Source: an uncultured Siphonobacter sp. (GTDB taxonomy: Bacteria; Bacteroidota; Bacteroidia; Cytophagales; Spirosomataceae). Taken from it: DNA of 64,000 bases. The translations under genes were made by a program, and so were the position numbers. This document shows positions 2-27,188 of this stretch, one piece after another (within the stretch, counting starts at the first letter, position 1; every line of letters begins with the position of its first letter). The notes under the pieces are model-generated. The model was not told the origin of the DNA. It ran no database searches and saw only the letters and a program-made list of their open reading frames with translations. The stretch is taken from contig CAJYHS010000240.1 in assembly GCA_913774715.1 (NCBI GenBank), positions 1 through 64,000 on the forward strand, given 5' to 3'.

Positions 2-697
2 GGTTCACTGGAAGATCTGTTGAAGGCGTGGAATGTTCCGGTATACGCTCATCCCCTGGAAATGCCCTTCCTCACGGGCAAGTCACATTACCCACCACCA
101 GATCCAACAGCAGGTAATGGAGCGATGTCGGCCTTTTCGTTTCTGTTCCCAACGAGTCCCCTCAACTTGAAGGATAAGGTTAAACCGATTCCTCACAATG
201 GATTTATCGATGAATTACCCGACTGGCGGTTCATTCATACCCCTGGTCATTCACCCGGTCACGTATCGTTGTTCCGGGATAAAGATAAAGTCCTGATTGC
301 GGGTGATGCTTTTGTGACTACCGATCAAAGTTCAGCCATAAGTGTCATGACGCAAAAACTCACGCTTCACGGACCCCCAACTTACTTTACCTGTGACTGG
401 CGGGCAGCTAAAAAATCCGTTCGGAAACTGGCAGAACTTAAGCCCAGTGCCGTCGGAACAGGACATGGTAAAGCTCTTCACGGAAAAGAATGGCGGGTCA
501 AAATTCAGGAGTTATCCGATGAATTTGACACCCGTGCCTTACCCTGGAGAAGCCGCTATATTAATAACCCCGCTCATACGGACGAAAACGGTATTGTTTC
601 CATGCCGAAACCCGTTTCTTACTGGGTTGCCAAAGGGCTTCTGTATGGAGCAGCAGCAGGTTTAGCTTTCTTTGCCTGGAATAAGTCTCGGAAGTAA
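2..697 (+). CDS. Metallo-beta-lactamase-fold hydrolase, 5' end outside the window
   Basis: The reading frame is already open at base 2, so the N-terminal part with the usual HxHxDH zinc motif lies upstream of the window. The visible part keeps the later metal-site motifs of the MBL fold: HTPGHSPGH, then AGDAF about 20 residues on, and a GTGHGKAL segment near the end. The C-terminus has a short hydrophobic stretch rich in Ala, Gly and Phe, followed by NKSRK, so it may be tethered to a membrane. Family members hydrolyse thioesters, lactones or phosphodiesters; the substrate cannot be told here. The gene converges on mutS and shares a strong hairpin with it. Confidence 0.8.
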   Translation, partial: GSLEDLLKAWNVPVYAHPLEMPFLTGKSHYPPPDPTAGNGAMSAFSFLFPTSPLNLKDKVKPIPHNGFIDELPDWRFIHTPGHSPGHVSLFRDKDKVLIAGDAFVTTDQSSAISVMTQKLTLHGPPTYFTCDWRAAKKSVRKLAELKPSAVGTGHGKALHGKEWRVKIQELSDEFDTRALPWRSRYINNPAHTDENGIVSMPKPVSYWVAKGLLYGAAAGLAFFAWNKSRK

Positions 698-721
698 TAT
701 ATAATGCTTATTTATATAAGA

Positions 722-18047: not shown

Positions 18048-19616
18048 TTATTCAGCCGAGGCAATTACCTGCATCTTTTGTGTATTCGTGAATGTACGAC
18101 CGTAGGCATCTTTCGCCCGAACTTCAATCGTATAATTTCCTTCCTTCATGTTACCAGGCAAAGAAGCCTTCCATAAATGCGTACAGGTTACCGGATTAGA
18201 CGGACGTGTACCCTTCAGCGGTTCCGTAGCTTCATCCCAGCGTAAGCGGGTCTTCAACATCATAGGATCTGGTTCTGCTACCTTCTCCATGGCTTTCCAG
18301 CTGCCACTATCAATGCGGTATTCCAGCTGATCTTTTTCACTGCCCTGGAAGAAGTTAGCGTACACCTCCCCTTTCGCTGACTGCCGACGAGCAATCACTT
18401 TCGGAGCATGAATACCAATTTTATACTCCTCTGGCTGACCAGCAACGCGGTAGTCAAACGCGTATTCATTTCCTTTGAATGAAAGGAACATGTAGCCTTT
18501 CGGTGTGCCATCCCGCATCATCGAAACTGGTACGCCTTTCTCATTCAGTTCGCCGGAGTACCAGTCACCTGAAGTGGTGCCTACGTTATACTCGTGGTGA
18601 GGTTTCTCGCGGGTAAATCCTTCTTCCTTGCCAAAGAAATGGTGCAACTGAAAGTGGGTGTGGGCCGAAAGGGATAAGGTATGAGGAAAATCCTTCAAAG
18701 CATTAAACATTCGCTGACGATCTTCCTGACGGAATTCTTCAAAGGGAGGAATATGGTAACAAAACACAATCAGCTTTTCCTTGGGTACCAATTTCAGGTC
18801 GTTCTCAATGAAATCCAGCTGATCAGGACGTAATCCACCCTGATAGCCTTTTCCATCCCGAGGATCAGGATATAAAATGTTATCCAACACAACAAAGTGA
18901 ACATCACCACTGTTGAAAGCAAAGTTGTTAGGTCCAAAAGCAGCTTCAAAACTTTCATCAGAAAGACTATCTGCCTGAGCATCGTAGTTCATGTCGTGGT
19001 TACCCATCACATGGAACCAAGGCAACCCTATCTGCTGAATGGCCTTCTTATAAGAAGGATACAGCTCAGGGTTATCTCCTACTTCATCCCCCATGCTGAT
19101 CCCGAAACGAACACCAGTGGTTTTGCTTTTTACTTCATCAATAATTCCTTTCTGGAAAAAACCAACCTGCTCTTCGGAATATACCTGAGGATCTCCGAAA
19201 ACCAGGATTTTGAAATCAGCAGGTTCGTCCTGTTTAATAACCGCAAAGTCTACCGACTTAGGAATTTCTCCCGTTGCCGCAACACCCGCAAATTTCGTCT
19301 TAGGTGACCCTTTGGGTTTATGATGGCGGTAAAATTGTGGCAGGTTAAACTCATTCACAGGCAAACGATACCCCGAAGGTTTAATCACGAAGATCGTCTG
19401 ATCCTGACCTAAAGGCAATTCATATTTACCCTGAGCATCGGTTAATACTACTTCACGACCATTAGAAACGGCTACTTTGGGCAGGCCCGTTTCCTTTTTA
19501 TCTTTCTTACCATTGCCGTTCTGATCTTCGTATACAAAGCCTCTTACCTGGCCCTGTGCAAATACTGAACCGCATAAGAGCGTACCGATTCCGCACGCAA
19601 TCAGTTTATTTAACAT
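18048..19616 (-). CDS. Exported calcineurin-like phosphoesterase with N- and C-terminal beta domains
   Basis: 522 residues. A signal peptide (ends FAQ, leaving Q) is followed by an SdrD/CnaB-like domain of about 75 residues (VRGFVYEDQNGNGKKDKKETGL). The metallophosphatase core has FGDPQVY, SMGDEVGDN, VMGNHDMNYD and SLSAHTHFQLHH as the metal-site motifs. The C-terminal ~150 residues form the MetallophosC-type domain (KVIARRQSAKGEVYANFF...). Three-domain proteins of this kind are common in Bacteroidota and act outside the cytoplasm on phosphoesters; the substrate is unknown. The small acidic gene upstream ends 30 bases before it. Confidence 0.9.
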   Translation of the reverse strand: MLNKLIACGIGTLLCGSVFAQGQVRGFVYEDQNGNGKKDKKETGLPKVAVSNGREVVLTDAQGKYELPLGQDQTIFVIKPSGYRLPVNEFNLPQFYRHHKPKGSPKTKFAGVAATGEIPKSVDFAVIKQDEPADFKILVFGDPQVYSEEQVGFFQKGIIDEVKSKTTGVRFGISMGDEVGDNPELYPSYKKAIQQIGLPWFHVMGNHDMNYDAQADSLSDESFEAAFGPNNFAFNSGDVHFVVLDNILYPDPRDGKGYQGGLRPDQLDFIENDLKLVPKEKLIVFCYHIPPFEEFRQEDRQRMFNALKDFPHTLSLSAHTHFQLHHFFGKEEGFTREKPHHEYNVGTTSGDWYSGELNEKGVPVSMMRDGTPKGYMFLSFKGNEYAFDYRVAGQPEEYKIGIHAPKVIARRQSAKGEVYANFFQGSEKDQLEYRIDSGSWKAMEKVAEPDPMMLKTRLRWDEATEPLKGTRPSNPVTCTHLWKASLPGNMKEGNYTIEVRAKDAYGRTFTNTQKMQVIASAE

Positions 19617-21909: not shown

Positions 21910-22446
21910 CTACAAGCCTGATGCACTATAGGTTAACGTTGTCGTGTAAGTACCTGCCGGCTTTAAATAAGCTGATCCTCCAGAAGCAGTGTATCTTAAA
22001 TTTATACGGATACCTAATTCAACCAGTGACAGCAAACCGGTCATCAAAGTCTGGTTGGCCGTTGATAAAACCAGAGAACTATTCTGGCTTAGTATCACAC
22101 TGACTCCTGTGCCACTAACCCCCTGAACACCCATATTTATAGTACCGATGGGAATGGTATTGCTACCATTCTGCAAATCTCCGCTAGCTCTCACTGACAA
22201 ACCCCAAAGTACACCTATAGTTCCTGACAGAACTACCGCAGACGTCTGATTAACAGTTACTCCACTGGTATAGTGGCTAACGTTTGAAAAGTCAATGGAC
22301 GGAGGTGGGTTTGCCACTATTGCCAATGCCCAATACGATTCATCTTTACCTGGATGCACTGGTTCACGAGCATCTGCCCATAATTCCTGAGCGAGTCCTG
22401 GCAGACTACATAAGATCAGGAAAAGAGTAATATAACTTTTTATCAT
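21910..22446 (-). CDS. DUF4402-like surface subunit, second copy
   Basis: 178 residues: signal peptide (ends GLAQ, leaving Q), a Pro/Asp-rich N-terminal stretch, then a single beta-sandwich domain. The C-terminal strand AGTYTTTLTYSAS is nearly identical to the end of the other subunit at 23342. That AGTY..T.TY ending resembles DUF4402/spore-coat-U subunits of archaic chaperone-usher fibres. The start codon overlaps the chaperone stop (TGATG), so the two are translationally coupled. Only one Ig-like domain is present, so it is probably a fibre or tip subunit; that is inference. Confidence 0.65.
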   Translation of the reverse strand: MIKSYITLFLILCSLPGLAQELWADAREPVHPGKDESYWALAIVANPPPSIDFSNVSHYTSGVTVNQTSAVVLSGTIGVLWGLSVRASGDLQNGSNTIPIGTINMGVQGVSGTGVSVILSQNSSLVLSTANQTLMTGLLSLVELGIRINLRYTASGGSAYLKPAGTYTTTLTYSASGL

Positions 22447-23255
22447 CAGTCGATTTTCATTTCAATTTCAACAACCTGAAGGGATAAATCCGGACCACTG
22501 TCTGCGATCGCTGAAATTAAATATTTTCCCGGCTCTACTTTATCCGGGACGTCTGCAATTACCCAAAATGCTTCACCTGGTAAAGAATTAAAAGGAACAG
22601 CATCCAATTTTATTTCTTCATCAGTATCTGAATTCATTAACTCCAGGCGAAGAAAGCTTTCCATCGGTAATTGACCGTCATTTTTAATCCATACTTTCAG
22701 CTTACGTTTTCCATCTTTCTTAGCAAGAGTAATATCAGTAACCTGAATGGATTTTTTTTGCAAAGAAGTAGGAATAATATAGGCATGAACCCCTAATTGA
22801 ACCCGTATAATAAAGCCTGAACTTTGAAGGTTTTGGGCAGCTAATTCCTTTTCATTAGTTTGAGTAAGAAATATCATGCCATTTCTGAGTATATTCTGAT
22901 TTCCGGACGGCATCTTTAGTGTAGTCAGAACCTGTGCTTCCTGCCCTGGCATTAGGGTAATGAATTCTGGATTAAAACTCAGATAAGGACACGATGAATT
23001 CAGTTGAGAACTAGCCTTATAATATTGTTTTTCACCTAATGTATCTCTTTTCCAGTCAGCACAACTTACCTGCAAAACTACTTTTTGTTGGGATGGATTT
23101 CCTACCCGAATGATAGCCGTTTGTGTACTCCCATCCCGTTCAGGAAAGAATAATCGAACCGGACTTACCTGTAAACCAGTCTGAGCATTAGCAAAGGTAA
23201 TTATACCTAATAGAAACACACACGTAAGTGTATACCTCGTCATTTTTATAATCAT
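22446..23255 (-). CDS. PapD-like periplasmic chaperone
   Basis: 269 residues with a signal peptide (ends NAQ). Two Ig-like domains are visible. The first has GLQVSPVRLFFPE as strand A1, AIIRVGNPSQQKVVLQVS, and the chaperone hallmark LSFNPEFITLMPGQEAQV. The second starts near ITLAKKDGKRKLKVWIKNDG. Two Cys (CADW and SSCPYL) could pair. PapD-like chaperones cap fibre subunits in the periplasm before handing them to an usher. The gene sits between two DUF4402-like subunit genes and overlaps the second. ATG 23243 is an alternative start. Confidence 0.75.
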   Translation of the reverse strand: MIIKMTRYTLTCVFLLGIITFANAQTGLQVSPVRLFFPERDGSTQTAIIRVGNPSQQKVVLQVSCADWKRDTLGEKQYYKASSQLNSSCPYLSFNPEFITLMPGQEAQVLTTLKMPSGNQNILRNGMIFLTQTNEKELAAQNLQSSGFIIRVQLGVHAYIIPTSLQKKSIQVTDITLAKKDGKRKLKVWIKNDGQLPMESFLRLELMNSDTDEEIKLDAVPFNSLPGEAFWVIADVPDKVEPGKYLISAIADSGPDLSLQVVEIEMKID

Positions 23256-23341
23256 TTATTAGCGGATTGTACAAAGATAAAAGGGTTCATTGCAAAAACA
23301 ATGAACCCGTCAATACCTGGTATTCTCAGTAGTCCTAATTA

Positions 23342-23893
23342 TTAAGGAACAGATGCCGTATAAGTTAATGTAGTGGTGTAAGTTCCTGCTCTTTTAGCAA
23401 AATCAGAATCATTAGCTGGTGTTTGGTATTGCATATTAAAAGATTTTGCAATACCAGCGGGTGCACCGGCTATTAAGCTCTGATCTGCATTCGATAAAGC
23501 GACGGTACTAGCCGTTCCTCCGATCGCAGCAGCGTTGGCAACACTAACCGATATTTTGTTCACAGGAATAACATCTGTATTACCTGCATCTGAACTAGAC
23601 AAGTTACCAGCAGCCCGTATTTTAAGAGAAAAAGCACGATTACTGGTTACTGTTAACTGCCCGGTAAGTGCGGCAGTAACTCCTGTTTGATACGATGTTG
23701 CTCCAGTAAAGTTCAAGTTTACCGTTTGGTTATTCACCGTTAAAACTAGTACATCAACGAGCGTTACGTTTAAGGTAGCTGTTCCAGTAGCTGTTGCTTG
23801 AGCCTGAGCTTTCGAAGTAAAGAAAACCGAAAACAATAACGTAGTAGTAAATAAGCATACTACTTTTAAAAGGCGTTTAGAAAAGTTTTTCAT
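23342..23893 (-). CDS. DUF4402-like surface subunit, first copy
   Basis: 183 residues. A signal peptide ends at SKAQAQ. The mature protein starts with a Thr/Ala-rich strand (TATGTATLNVTL) that could act as a donor strand. One beta-sandwich domain follows and ends in AGTYTTTLTYTAS. It is low in charge and has no Cys. It is first in the minus-strand operon, 86 bases upstream of the chaperone and divergent from the usher-like gene. A major fibre subunit is the most likely role; an adhesin is the alternative. Confidence 0.65.
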   Translation of the reverse strand: MKNFSKRLLKVVCLFTTTLLFSVFFTSKAQAQATATGTATLNVTLVDVLVLTVNNQTVNLNFTGATSYQTGVTAALTGQLTVTSNRAFSLKIRAAGNLSSSDAGNTDVIPVNKISVSVANAAAIGGTASTVALSNADQSLIAGAPAGIAKSFNMQYQTPANDSDFAKRAGTYTTTLTYTASVP

Positions 23894-23979
23894 TCGTGGT
23901 GGATTTTTGTTTGAAAGTGTATTACTTTGAAACCAAGTATTGACTCCGTAAGAATAAATAATAAATCCAACTCCGCCTA

Positions 23980-26733
23980 ATGATTTATCGAATTTTTTAC
24001 CTGATACTCATCTGTTTACCTACTTTTGGACAGCAATCTACAGCAGAATTACTTAGGGTAAGATTGAAAAAAGACAGCTTAAATTGCGAGCTGGGAAGCA
24101 CTTTTTCAAATCGACTACTAATTCAAAATAACGCTAACCAAGTAATATATACGCATATTGATTGGAAATACTCATCCGATCTGTACTCCATCAGTTCTTT
24201 ACCCGAACGTATGGAGATTAACCCCCGGGAAATTGCCAGTATTCCGATAAAATTTTTAGTTCAGCCTACTGCAAAAGATGGAATTCTGGAACTGTCGTTA
24301 GCCGTGTCAATTGAAGGGGAACCTAACCGTAAACCCACAAATATTACTAGCAGAATTTATTTAAAAGATAGAAACGATTACTGGCAGATTAACACAGATC
24401 AAGATCAACCTCAGTTTACCTCTGAATCAGAAGGTTTAAAAATGTCAGTTCGTATTAAAAATCCTTCTTTTAATGCGGAAACTATAAAGCTGGATATGGC
24501 TTCTTATCCGGCAGGTTTTGAATTAGCCGATAAAAATCAAATTCTTTCCTTATCTCCTCGATCCGATACCACTATTTCGATCCAATGTCGTGCTACCAGT
24601 GACCTAAATAGGAATGCTAACTATAACCTAACGTTATGGCTTAAAGACAAAGACGACAACATTAAAAGTACATTATCTTTTAAACCCATTTTCCTAAGTC
24701 ATACCAGACGTTACATCAGTGCTGACAGAATTGGCATATACCAAAACATGATTCAATTATCACACGCCTGGCTAGGACCAGGTTTGTCAACATTTGAAGG
24801 GCTTATTTTAGGAGAAGAAACCATAAAAAACGGACGAATTAGATACGCAGCTCATTACCTCAATTATCAACCCATTAATAGACATGAATTAAGAAATACT
24901 TTTATTGATTATCAAAAAGGAAATTTCTCTACCCGTCTTGGTAATATTAATGATTATCATGAGCTTGCGATGATTGGAAGGGGCATTCACGTTCAGCAAC
25001 GTTTCAATAAGCATCGATTAAATGCCTGGGCTTACCGCGAAGGATGGAATCTGGTTGGCCCCTATAGTCAGGACACTCTTCAAAGCTCCGTGATTTCCGT
25101 TTTGTCCGAGGGAATGATTAATGGGAAGGGAAATATGACTTATAATGCCTCGCTCAATTACATTCAGGGATACAACTATCGAACGGGACTTACCTTTGGC
25201 ACTTTTTCTTTTCAGCCTAATGAAAAGCATTTCTTCCGTTTTTTACTAGGAGCGAATAGAACGGATGTCGATCTGGAAAAACGTTACGGTGGAGCGGCGG
25301 GGCTTGATTATACTTACTATTCTTCCAAAGTAGAGTTCAGAAATCGCGTCTATTTCAGTACTCCTACTTACGCGGGCTTTCAGAAAGGCAGTCAGAACGT
25401 GGATACTTGGCTGGCTCAAAAATCCAGTTCATCCCATCGATTTGCCTTTCACGCTAATAATTTCAAATATAAAGAGACGCCTCTTTTGCCTAATCGCCCG
25501 CTCTACGAGTACGGGATGACTACCATTGAAGGCATTTATACGCGATCAGCCAATCGTTTTTCAGTGAACCTTAAGCCTTATTATCTCGCTCAGGCCATGA
25601 GAGATTCTACCTTCAATCGTTCACAGTCCTACCGGATTTCGACTCATCTGGCGTTACAATTGAACCGAATTAGAGTAGAAGGCACCTACGATCCTGGGCT
25701 TTTCTCGGCCACAGTTCACGAACAGAACTACGCTCCTTCTTTTAGTCAGCGTGCTACGTTTACTTTTTCCTCGCAATACTTTAATCTGTTTTCACTCTAT
25801 CAGAAAGGAGCTTATTTCGTTACGGATTTACTAATGACACCGATAAGCCCGGAGAAATTCGAAATGCTCAGCACCACACCCAGCATAAACCTGAACTTCA
25901 AAAAAATAAGAGGGCATATTGGGGTAAACATCTTATACATGAGTACGCTGAATTTTTGGAATACTCAGGTGGTGGGTTCTTTAAGTACTGATTTTTTGCG
26001 TTCCTGGACGCTTCGGGCGGAGGCAGTGTCCTTTACCAACCAGCCCGCTCGTGTCTTTCAACCTGAAACGTATACGCAGGGCATGCAGCAATATCGTTTT
26101 GATTTGATTAAGAATCTGGGAAGTCTGACTAAAAGCCAGAGCCATCAGCTTCGGCTTCGGTTCTTTGAGGATATAAACCAGGATGGGCAGCGGGATAAGG
26201 ACGAACCCTGGATGGCCAATCTTTTCGTGAAGCTTAAAGGTTCTACGCTTGTCACGGATGAAAACGGCGAGATTATTTATAAAAATATACCGGAAGGTCC
26301 CTGCGAAGTTCAGGCTTACGGCTCCTTTCAATCGGGTAATCCGGCTTTATTTAATGAGACTATTCAGTTGAAGAAAAATGTCCGTCGGGATATCCCTCTC
26401 CAGCGTATTTTTCAGGTTACCGGCGTGATCCACTTTCCCAGCAAACGCTACCTGACCGACAAAATCGATTTGACTCAGTTCAAACTGGAAGCCCGCGGTG
26501 CCGACGGGAAAAATTATTCGGGTTACCCTGATGCTGAAGGCAAATTCAATCTTTACGTTCCTAAAGGCGATTATCAGATTTTTGTATTAGATCTGAAAAA
26601 ATCCCAGTCCGAAAATGTCATTCAAAGCATACGGTATCTGGTTTCCAGCATGGGCGAAAATGAACCCTTGCAGATTATGCTGGAACAAAAGCAGCGAAAC
26701 GTAGAAGTACGGAAACTTCAAAGTAGAATGTAA
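23980..26733 (+). CDS. Usher-like outer-membrane protein with C-terminal SdrD/CnaB domain
   Basis: 917 residues. After a signal peptide (ends FGQ) come two Ig-like domains (about 25-235). A long array of barrel-type strands follows (about 250-690: RYAAHYLNYQ, GNFSTRLGNINDYHELAMIGRGIHVQQ, LNAWAYREGW and so on). Then comes an SdrD/CnaB-like domain (RLRFFEDINQDGQRDKDEP, about 715-800) and a C-terminal beta domain. The barrel, its size and the divergent chaperone/subunit operon suggest an usher. Sequence similarity to classical FimD/PapC is not obvious by eye. The first ~1 kb is AT-richer than the 3' end. Its last 16 bases overlap the convergent lipocalin gene. Confidence 0.6.
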   Translation: MIYRIFYLILICLPTFGQQSTAELLRVRLKKDSLNCELGSTFSNRLLIQNNANQVIYTHIDWKYSSDLYSISSLPERMEINPREIASIPIKFLVQPTAKDGILELSLAVSIEGEPNRKPTNITSRIYLKDRNDYWQINTDQDQPQFTSESEGLKMSVRIKNPSFNAETIKLDMASYPAGFELADKNQILSLSPRSDTTISIQCRATSDLNRNANYNLTLWLKDKDDNIKSTLSFKPIFLSHTRRYISADRIGIYQNMIQLSHAWLGPGLSTFEGLILGEETIKNGRIRYAAHYLNYQPINRHELRNTFIDYQKGNFSTRLGNINDYHELAMIGRGIHVQQRFNKHRLNAWAYREGWNLVGPYSQDTLQSSVISVLSEGMINGKGNMTYNASLNYIQGYNYRTGLTFGTFSFQPNEKHFFRFLLGANRTDVDLEKRYGGAAGLDYTYYSSKVEFRNRVYFSTPTYAGFQKGSQNVDTWLAQKSSSSHRFAFHANNFKYKETPLLPNRPLYEYGMTTIEGIYTRSANRFSVNLKPYYLAQAMRDSTFNRSQSYRISTHLALQLNRIRVEGTYDPGLFSATVHEQNYAPSFSQRATFTFSSQYFNLFSLYQKGAYFVTDLLMTPISPEKFEMLSTTPSINLNFKKIRGHIGVNILYMSTLNFWNTQVVGSLSTDFLRSWTLRAEAVSFTNQPARVFQPETYTQGMQQYRFDLIKNLGSLTKSQSHQLRLRFFEDINQDGQRDKDEPWMANLFVKLKGSTLVTDENGEIIYKNIPEGPCEVQAYGSFQSGNPALFNETIQLKKNVRRDIPLQRIFQVTGVIHFPSKRYLTDKIDLTQFKLEARGADGKNYSGYPDAEGKFNLYVPKGDYQIFVLDLKKSQSENVIQSIRYLVSSMGENEPLQIMLEQKQRNVEVRKLQSRM

Positions 26734-27188
26734 GGCAAATCCTTCAACGAAGGAATATGCGACTTTAACACTGAATCCGTTGCCATCTGGCCTTTAATCT
26801 TCTGTAGTAACTTCGGCGAAAGCCGGGGTTGCCGACTAATGATGTCTACTCCTGCGGGCGTAAATAAGGTTTTTGAAAAGTAAATCACGGCCCATTCACC
26901 CTTAGGATCCAGTAACCGCACCTGCCATTTGCTTTTCAAGAAGCCCAATATTCCTTTTCCCCGCCAGACAAACGCCTGAGGTTTACTGGCATCAGGATAA
27001 TCGTAACCGATAATCTTTTTTTCTTTACCTTTTTGCTGATACGTCACTTCATCGAGTAGTACTCCGGGCTTTTCTGCCAGGGGAGTATAGGTAAAGGTTG
27101 GGTTCTGTTTGTTCCCTTTCAGCCACATGGGAAAATTAGTGCTACAGATAAACCAGGTCCCGGCGATTACTTTCAATAAGGAATCCAT
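26718..27188 (-). CDS. Lipocalin-family protein
   Basis: 156 residues with the lipocalin first motif GTWFICSTNFPMWLKG, a middle strand set KSKWQVRLLDPKGEWAVIYF, and the C-terminal segment GVDIISRQPRLSPKLLQKI typical of bacterial lipocalins (Blc group). No signal peptide is visible, unlike Blc itself, so its location is uncertain. Lipocalins bind small hydrophobic ligands in a beta-barrel. Its 3' end overlaps the usher-like gene by 16 bases in convergent orientation. Confidence 0.82.
   Translation of the reverse strand: MDSLLKVIAGTWFICSTNFPMWLKGNKQNPTFTYTPLAEKPGVLLDEVTYQQKGKEKKIIGYDYPDASKPQAFVWRGKGILGFLKSKWQVRLLDPKGEWAVIYFSKTLFTPAGVDIISRQPRLSPKLLQKIKGQMATDSVLKSHIPSLKDLPYILL

Follow-up and report, generated by a model that had tools for sequence, protein, structure and literature searches.

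A candidate chaperone-usher-like fibre system with a diverged, plug-less barrel protein in Siphonobacter and other Bacteroidota

We analysed a 64,000-nucleotide stretch of contig CAJYHS010000240.1 from an uncultured Siphonobacter sp. (hereafter the window), in which four adjacent genes encode two small subunits, a periplasmic chaperone and a 917-residue barrel protein. Together these genes quite likely specify a chaperone-usher-like fibre system with a diverged, plug-less class of usher, the fibre itself being predicted from the genes. A preliminary description of the locus had proposed a system of the chaperone-usher type; this outline held for the chaperone, for the barrel as usher candidate and for the conservation of the gene set, but membership of DUF4402 and a match to usher hidden Markov models (HMMs) were not supported. 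Our analysis adds three features to that description, namely a barrel without the usher plug, a single subunit per locus without a donor-strand segment and a link to the fibrils TLP-1 and TLP-2. All four open reading frames (ORFs) were found in the ORF list of the window at the coordinates first reported, and because the same gene set recurs in other loci, the cassette is more than a chance arrangement. Its principal features, numbered from the first letter of the window, are:

21910..22446, minus strand: subunit A, putative tip or initiator (178 amino acids, aa; N-terminal segment charged, proline-containing and without an alternating strand)
22446..23255, minus strand: periplasmic chaperone of the PapD type with two immunoglobulin (Ig)-like domains (269 aa; profile match, AlphaFold2 model, Foldseek and VIA)
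23342..23893, minus strand: subunit B, shaft, putatively polymerising (183 aa with a signal peptide; Q32 assumed to start the mature protein, cleavage site placed by eye)
23753..23800, minus strand: putative N-terminal donor-strand extension (Nte), residues 32-47 of subunit B (QATATGTATLNVTLVD; alternating hydrophobic pattern, in register with that of the other shafts)
23980..26733, plus strand: predicted usher-like outer-membrane protein (917 aa; ORF, model, Foldseek, VIA and homology chain)
24046..24723, plus strand: two N-terminal Ig-like domains of the barrel protein (residues ~23-248; DSSP of the model; Cep192_D3 E 0.0019)
24727..26124, plus strand: predicted beta-barrel of 26 strands without a plug insertion (residues ~250-715; DSSP, VIA and insertion count)
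26125..26730, plus strand: two C-terminal Ig/CnaB-like domains of the barrel protein (residues ~716-917; Pfam and DSSP; aligned with the C-terminal domains of FimD/PapC in eight VIA rows)

The chaperone gene and the gene of subunit A meet at GACTGATGATAA, i.e. TGATG, as first described, and the motif AGTYTTTLTY does stand near the C-terminus of both subunits, which are 30% identical in a nine-sequence alignment. Searches of the source genome (5.73 Mb) found one barrel, one chaperone and two subunits, all inside the window.

The cassette is conserved across species, a point on which the original proposal depended, and recurs in public-contig loci and in the loci L051-L059. In Siphonobacter aquaeclarae it lies beside the same downstream genes, with a NuoL 85.6% identical to that of the window and identities of 41.7% for the barrel, 55.8% for the chaperone, 42.7% for the shaft and 46.3% for the tip. 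Relatives of the barrel were collected from 13 loci in public genome contigs of Siphonobacter, Fibrella, Roseivirga, Litoribacter and metagenome-assembled genomes; subunit genes were recognised in all 13 and a chaperone gene within the cassette in 12, with no chaperone recognised among the ORFs of the 9.8-kb contig L020. Judged by their lengths, three contigs (L005, L006 and L007) were taken to be the same as L009, L014 and L019 and counted once, and L016, nearly identical to L015, was omitted from the alignments A7 and A10 and from the subunit alignment. The divergent layout of shaft and usher-like genes is shared by L008 and L009, and Roseivirga has barrel, chaperone, shaft and tip genes following one another in that sequence, all on the same strand. 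Nine loci (L051-L059), from seven genomes that belong to the same taxonomic class but to a different order within it, carry one or more shafts, the chaperone, a two-domain protein of 341-478 aa and the barrel. When 395 Bacteroidota genomes were surveyed with the barrel profile at E <= 1e-12, 13 were matched, one of them (G392) through an SdrD-type domain alone, and the remaining 12 hold at least 17 barrel loci. The 17 strongest chaperone matches (E <= 5.4e-68) all lie within 2 kb of these 17 barrels, the next best reaching 4.4e-35. Copy numbers are lower bounds, because only the two best barrel candidates and the six best chaperone candidates were scored per genome. Eleven of the 12 genomes had supplied rows to the survey profile; what the survey added was G470 and a second copy in each of G149, G348 and G444. 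This survey superseded an earlier, less strict one that had returned 52 of the 395 genomes, mostly through SdrD_B-like domain matches alone.

The chaperone is, by profile and predicted fold, of the PapD type with two Ig-like domains, the layout that had been suggested for it. Against a set of nine E. coli K-12 chaperones, its family profile gave an alignment of 208 columns that covers both domains and has its end in the DYG region (hhalign, 96.6%, E 6.5e-10), and controls gave 0.2% for ushers and 10.7% for subunits, the latter over 17 signal-peptide columns. The AlphaFold2 model has a mean predicted local distance difference test (pLDDT) of 85.8. We compared structures with Foldseek and took VIA as a second look, the absence of a family from VIA lists not excluding that family. 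After two rows of WxLIP, VIA lists FimC (Z 13.8, 4.3 Å, 185 residues), Caf1M (13.7, 4.3 Å, 195), SfaE (13.7, 3.7 Å, 176) and CsuC (13.6, 4.0 Å, 195), part of a long series of chaperone-usher chaperones covering both domains with a best Z of 13.8. At E <= 1, PapD_N was matched by 4 of 13 family members; single-sequence searches of the PDB with the window chaperone returned nothing useful. The Arg of an SPxRL motif is present in 18 of 21 aligned chaperones and the matching Lys was not seen, the classical cleft pair being Arg8/Lys112 of PapD. PMC4654587 states that chaperones of archaic systems have no counterparts of these classical residues.

The subunits show the sequence pattern expected of donor-strand exchange. 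We aligned 49 subunits from 22 loci and added the L013 shaft from a separate comparison; one of two near-identical 196-aa L051 shafts and the extra small proteins of 143-144 aa (L054, L057, L058) were omitted, two-domain proteins were entered as their last 190 residues, and a later start codon was used for the L018 shaft. The shafts share an alternating N-terminal strand in front of the Ig-like domain (TATLNVTLVDV in the window; VTLNVRL, VYVAMDL and TVNITL elsewhere), read here as a putative donor-strand extension. Residues A31 and Q32, at the presumed cleavage site, are nearly invariant in 15 shafts. Among the subunit genes recognised in the fetched stretches, exactly one lacks such a segment in each of the 22 loci. 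This count was made by eye from the alignment, a scripted alternation test having proved too strict. Ten of these Nte-less subunits begin at the first strand of the domain, two (window and L008) have a charged, proline-containing segment instead and ten carry an extra N-terminal domain. One such subunit per locus would be expected if the fibre is joined by donor strands and has one tip. The label 'DUF4402-like', by which the subunits had first been described, did not stand: none of 26 subunits matched DUF4402 (which we take to be PF14352) at E <= 1 in Pfam.

A further link leads to fibrils of known structure. A profile of the 26 subunits matched the PDB entries 9ikk (TLP-2) and 9ikj (TLP-1), of 16 chains each, at E 2.6e-8 and 6e-8, mainly in the N-terminal half, including the N-terminal segment and the first strands. 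The L013 shaft matched TLP at E 4.5e-14 over residues 29-234 of its 236, and when the Roseivirga and L013 sequences were removed from the shafts, TLP still ranked first, though only at E 0.0065; a comparison of the two shaft groups with one another gave 96.9% (E 1.9e-10). The shafts thus appear to form a family homologous to TLP-1 and TLP-2, presumably the CryoSeek pond-water fibrils of Wang et al. 2024, to which they would give a gene context and cultured relatives.

For the barrel protein, an AlphaFold2 model from a 14-sequence input (mean pLDDT 77.3) predicts two N-terminal Ig-like domains, 26 strands at residues 257-712 (DSSP) and two C-terminal Ig-like domains, i.e. the usher layout of a periplasmic N-terminal domain, a large barrel and two C-terminal Ig-like domains. 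Foldseek ranks 1-6 were all FimD entries (E 1.1e-12 to 2.2e-11). FimD and PapC reach Z 17.7 in VIA (11.2 Å, 443 residues), and of the 50 VIA rows listed just eight, all FimD or PapC, span ~250 to ~902 and so take in both the barrel and the C-terminal domains (Z 14.2-17.7, root mean square deviation 11-14 Å, 411-448 residues). It is this predicted domain layout, rather than the barrel score, that favours an usher. The Ig-like N-terminus and SdrD/CnaB-type C-terminus noted at the outset give faint matches when the window protein is taken by itself (Cep192_D3 E 0.0019, SdrD_B E 0.017) and clear in the family, with SdrD_B in 12 of 14 members (best 5.4e-9) and CarboxypepD_reg in 13 of 14 among the Pfam families listed. 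Single-sequence PDB searches with the window barrel gave nothing useful. We also observed that the N-terminal Ig-like domains (window 23980-24723) resemble eukaryotic Cep192 and ciliary Ig-like domains in Pfam and Foldseek, and that one barrel relative, L020:4681-8265, carries at its C-terminus a fused OmpA domain (Pfam E 3.9e-19), which could anchor the pore to peptidoglycan.

A probable homology to ushers can be followed through intermediate families. Among 80 weaker chaperone matches, 28 loci, mostly the stronger ones, were fetched, and in 24 of these a large protein lies beside the chaperone, of type G2 in 11 and of type G3 in 13; the one in L071 is cut by the contig end, and L102 gave a weak G2 match. 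The G2 (nine sequences) and G3 (13 sequences) models were built from 22 of these 24 loci, L071 and L098 alone being independent. The chain runs from the window family to G2 (100%, E 1.3e-40, 862 columns), from G2 to G3 (96.6%, E 5.6e-10, 254 columns) and from G3 to six K-12 ushers (88.7%, E 2.6e-6, 254 columns), this last match covering the first barrel strands and a plug-like stretch, which aligns in G3 relatives with FimD and which we take to hold the FimD plug. Three control sets of other large proteins, namely TonB receptors (one of three Pfam-confirmed), two SusC-like proteins (labelled by eye) and six DUF5916 proteins (one Pfam-confirmed), gave at most 18.1% over 39 columns. We regard the 88.7% between G3 and ushers as suggestive rather than final. 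Single members carry weak usher-type matches, CooC_C, a domain of CS1-type ushers, in the G2 protein of L072 (E 1.3e-5, under the cut-off) and the TcfC E-set domain in the plug-like stretch of the G3 protein of L083 (E 0.094). As side observations, L073, L100 and L101 have PapD-like chaperone genes and no G2- or G3-type large protein within the fetched stretch. C-terminal SPOR domains are present in the G3 proteins L084:7200-10919 and L087:7197-10712 (E 1.7e-8 and 1.3e-16) and L078:7898-11449 (0.0011), and the G3 proteins of L083 and L089 have TPR-like matches at the C-terminus instead.

Several of our results weigh against a chaperone-usher reading, the first of them concerning the barrel. 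No usher-family Pfam model matched at E <= 1 in 23 family members (the window protein and 22 relatives, scanned singly), so the HMM search that had been recommended came out negative; PF00577 had no match in the source genome nor, at E <= 1e-5, in any of the 395 Bacteroidota genomes, the E. coli control being positive. Compared directly with K-12 ushers, the window family gave 0.3% and G2 6.3% (hhalign), and the link between the window family (A7) and G3, as well as much of that between G2 and G3, rests on C-terminal domains of a common kind. In all 22 family members the barrel spans 455-500 aa with a longest insertion of 22 aa relative to the window, and therefore holds no plug domain. The predicted template modelling score (pTM) of the model is 0.48, Foldseek template modelling (TM) scores to ushers are 0.1-0.3 on the query, and ciliary Ig-repeat proteins follow from rank 7 (E 2.5e-11). 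The best VIA match of the barrel, ahead of FimD and PapC, is MtrB (Z 20.5, 5.2 Å, 421 residues), and porins appear at Z ~14-17, so that barrel similarity alone is weak evidence. The check for an unrelated fold, which had been named as a possible refutation, was thus answered neither way. With no direct sequence match to ushers, no plug and MtrB in first place, the protein could be a large outer-membrane barrel of separate descent (MtrB- or LptD-like) with the task of anchoring or exporting other cargo, the chaperone and subunits building a fibre or coat by other means. This we consider unlikely: the MtrB alignment is confined to the barrel (250..713), whereas the eight FimD/PapC rows extend into the C-terminal domains; no cytochrome gene, decahaem or otherwise, was recognised nearby by eye among the window ORFs; all 17 surveyed barrel loci adjoin a chaperone; and the homology chain leads to ushers. 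Because neither an usher signature nor a plug was found, we file the barrel as a diverged relative of the usher family, apparently linked to it via intermediate families, and not as a family member. The proposal that the 917-residue protein is the usher accordingly survives as a candidacy, carried by the Foldseek ranks and the homology chain, but not as a direct usher-family match.

Other contrary points concern the chaperone and the fibre. The PapD_N score of the window chaperone (14.6 bits) does not reach the cut-off of 23, and part of its profile score is generic to Ig domains, since the profile also matches the N-terminal Ig domain of the barrel protein (92.5%). Moreover, the closest structures to the chaperone model are those of WxLIP, from Gram-positive WxL clusters (VIA Z 16.2, 6.8 Å, 231 residues; Foldseek ranks 1-3), and weak WxLIP_PGBD matches occur in 6 of 13 family members, the window score being 16.4 bits against a cut-off of 27.3. 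By the title of PMC10599100, WxLIP is a binding partner of WxL and connects bacterial with host surfaces. The two-Ig protein might by this analogy be a surface adaptor that holds Ig-like subunits in a static adhesive complex and is no assembly chaperone, which we judge very unlikely: its profile matches PapD-type chaperones from end to end, the C-terminal DYG region among the matched parts, the shafts have donor-strand-like segments with one subunit per locus lacking them and, unlike in WxLIP clusters, no WxL domain turned up when eight window proteins were scanned at E <= 1. The fibre is a prediction from the genes, and the window shaft by itself has no TLP match. A fibre of type V (FimA/Mfa1), or one that depends on type IX secretion, would fit the phylum, both being known fibre or export routes in Bacteroidota, and donor-strand complementation is discussed for type V fimbriae in PMC4789730. 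Such a fibre is nevertheless extremely improbable here: no type IX secretion system sorting-domain model matches the window proteins, and the Cys at residue 13 of both window signal peptides does not appear, by eye, to lie in a canonical lipobox. Type V fimbriae have lipoprotein subunits and are not known to have a chaperone-usher pair, and we know of no type V or type IX system with a PapD-type chaperone.

Returning to the chaperone-usher-like system, we infer polymerisation, passage of the fibre through the barrel, regulation and any part played in adhesion or biofilms, and picture the pathway as follows. The two subunits would enter the periplasm via their signal peptides, where the PapD-type chaperone would cap and stabilise their incomplete Ig-like folds. 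Subunit A, without a donor-strand segment, would begin the fibre as its tip; molecules of subunit B would follow, each placing its N-terminal strand (TATLNVTLVDV) into the groove of the preceding subunit and displacing the chaperone. The 917-residue barrel would recruit the chaperone-subunit complexes by its periplasmic Ig-like domains and pass the growing fibre to the surface.

Such a system would share with the pili of the archaic and alternative pathways (Csu, ECP, CFA/I) a chaperone of the PapD type, Ig-like subunits that carry donor strands at the N-terminus, a single tip subunit and an outer-membrane barrel flanked on either side by periplasmic domains. Unlike their ushers, the window barrel family matches no usher Pfam model, lacks a plug and has N-terminal domains that are Ig-like, and 26 strands are predicted against the 24 of known ushers. 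In L051-L059 and L019 the putative tip subunit has two domains, like CsuE, for which a two-domain tip is described in PMC9452303. In PMC4654587, the archaic type is assigned to Proteobacteria, Cyanobacteria and Deinococcus-Thermus, a list without Bacteroidota, and the classical and alternate types to beta- and gamma-proteobacteria. No description of the present system was found among the search results for open-licence PubMed Central papers. A survey relying on PF00577 would report no such system in Bacteroidota (0/395), although its other components make the cassette easy to recognise. An unplugged usher would furthermore be a natural variant that makes the question of pore gating, i.e. how an idle pore stays shut, testable. 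A broader proposition, which in our judgement is as apt to fail as to hold, is that Bacteroidota harbour a phylum-wide radiation invisible to PF00577 with at least three usher groups (G3 plugged, the window family unplugged, and G2, the relatives of the window family), that the unplugged, ~26-stranded usher gates export without a plug, and that this radiation built the orphan TLP-1 and TLP-2 fibrils.

Regulation may involve two elements between the genes:

23283..23308, minus strand: terminator- or attenuator-like hairpin between the shaft and chaperone genes, putative role (pattern scan and fold z)
23894..23979, no strand: 86-bp intergenic region of the divergent shaft and usher-like genes, presumed site of both promoters

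The hairpin (read 23308-23283) is followed by a T-rich tail and has a fold z of -4.2, none of 200 shuffles being as stable; the scan for the terminator pattern was at chance level (1 found, 1.3 expected), as were promoter-like sites (8 found, 5.6 expected). A hairpin of different sequence stands at the same place in L008 and none as strong was found in L009, both read without a shuffle control. Placed after the shaft gene, the hairpin could keep shaft mRNA above that of chaperone and tip. The term 'one minus-strand operon', used in the preliminary description, is therefore loose: the gene order is correct, but a terminator-like hairpin lies between subunit B and the chaperone.

Two neighbouring genes of the window may be mentioned. 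A lipocalin-like gene (26718-27188, minus strand; Lipocalin_2 E 0.0035, under the cut-off) shares 16 bases with the 3' end of the barrel gene, and positions 18048-19616 encode a calcineurin-like phosphoesterase that has MetallophosN/C domains and whose N-terminus gives an SdrD_B-like match (E 5e-6, under the cut-off).

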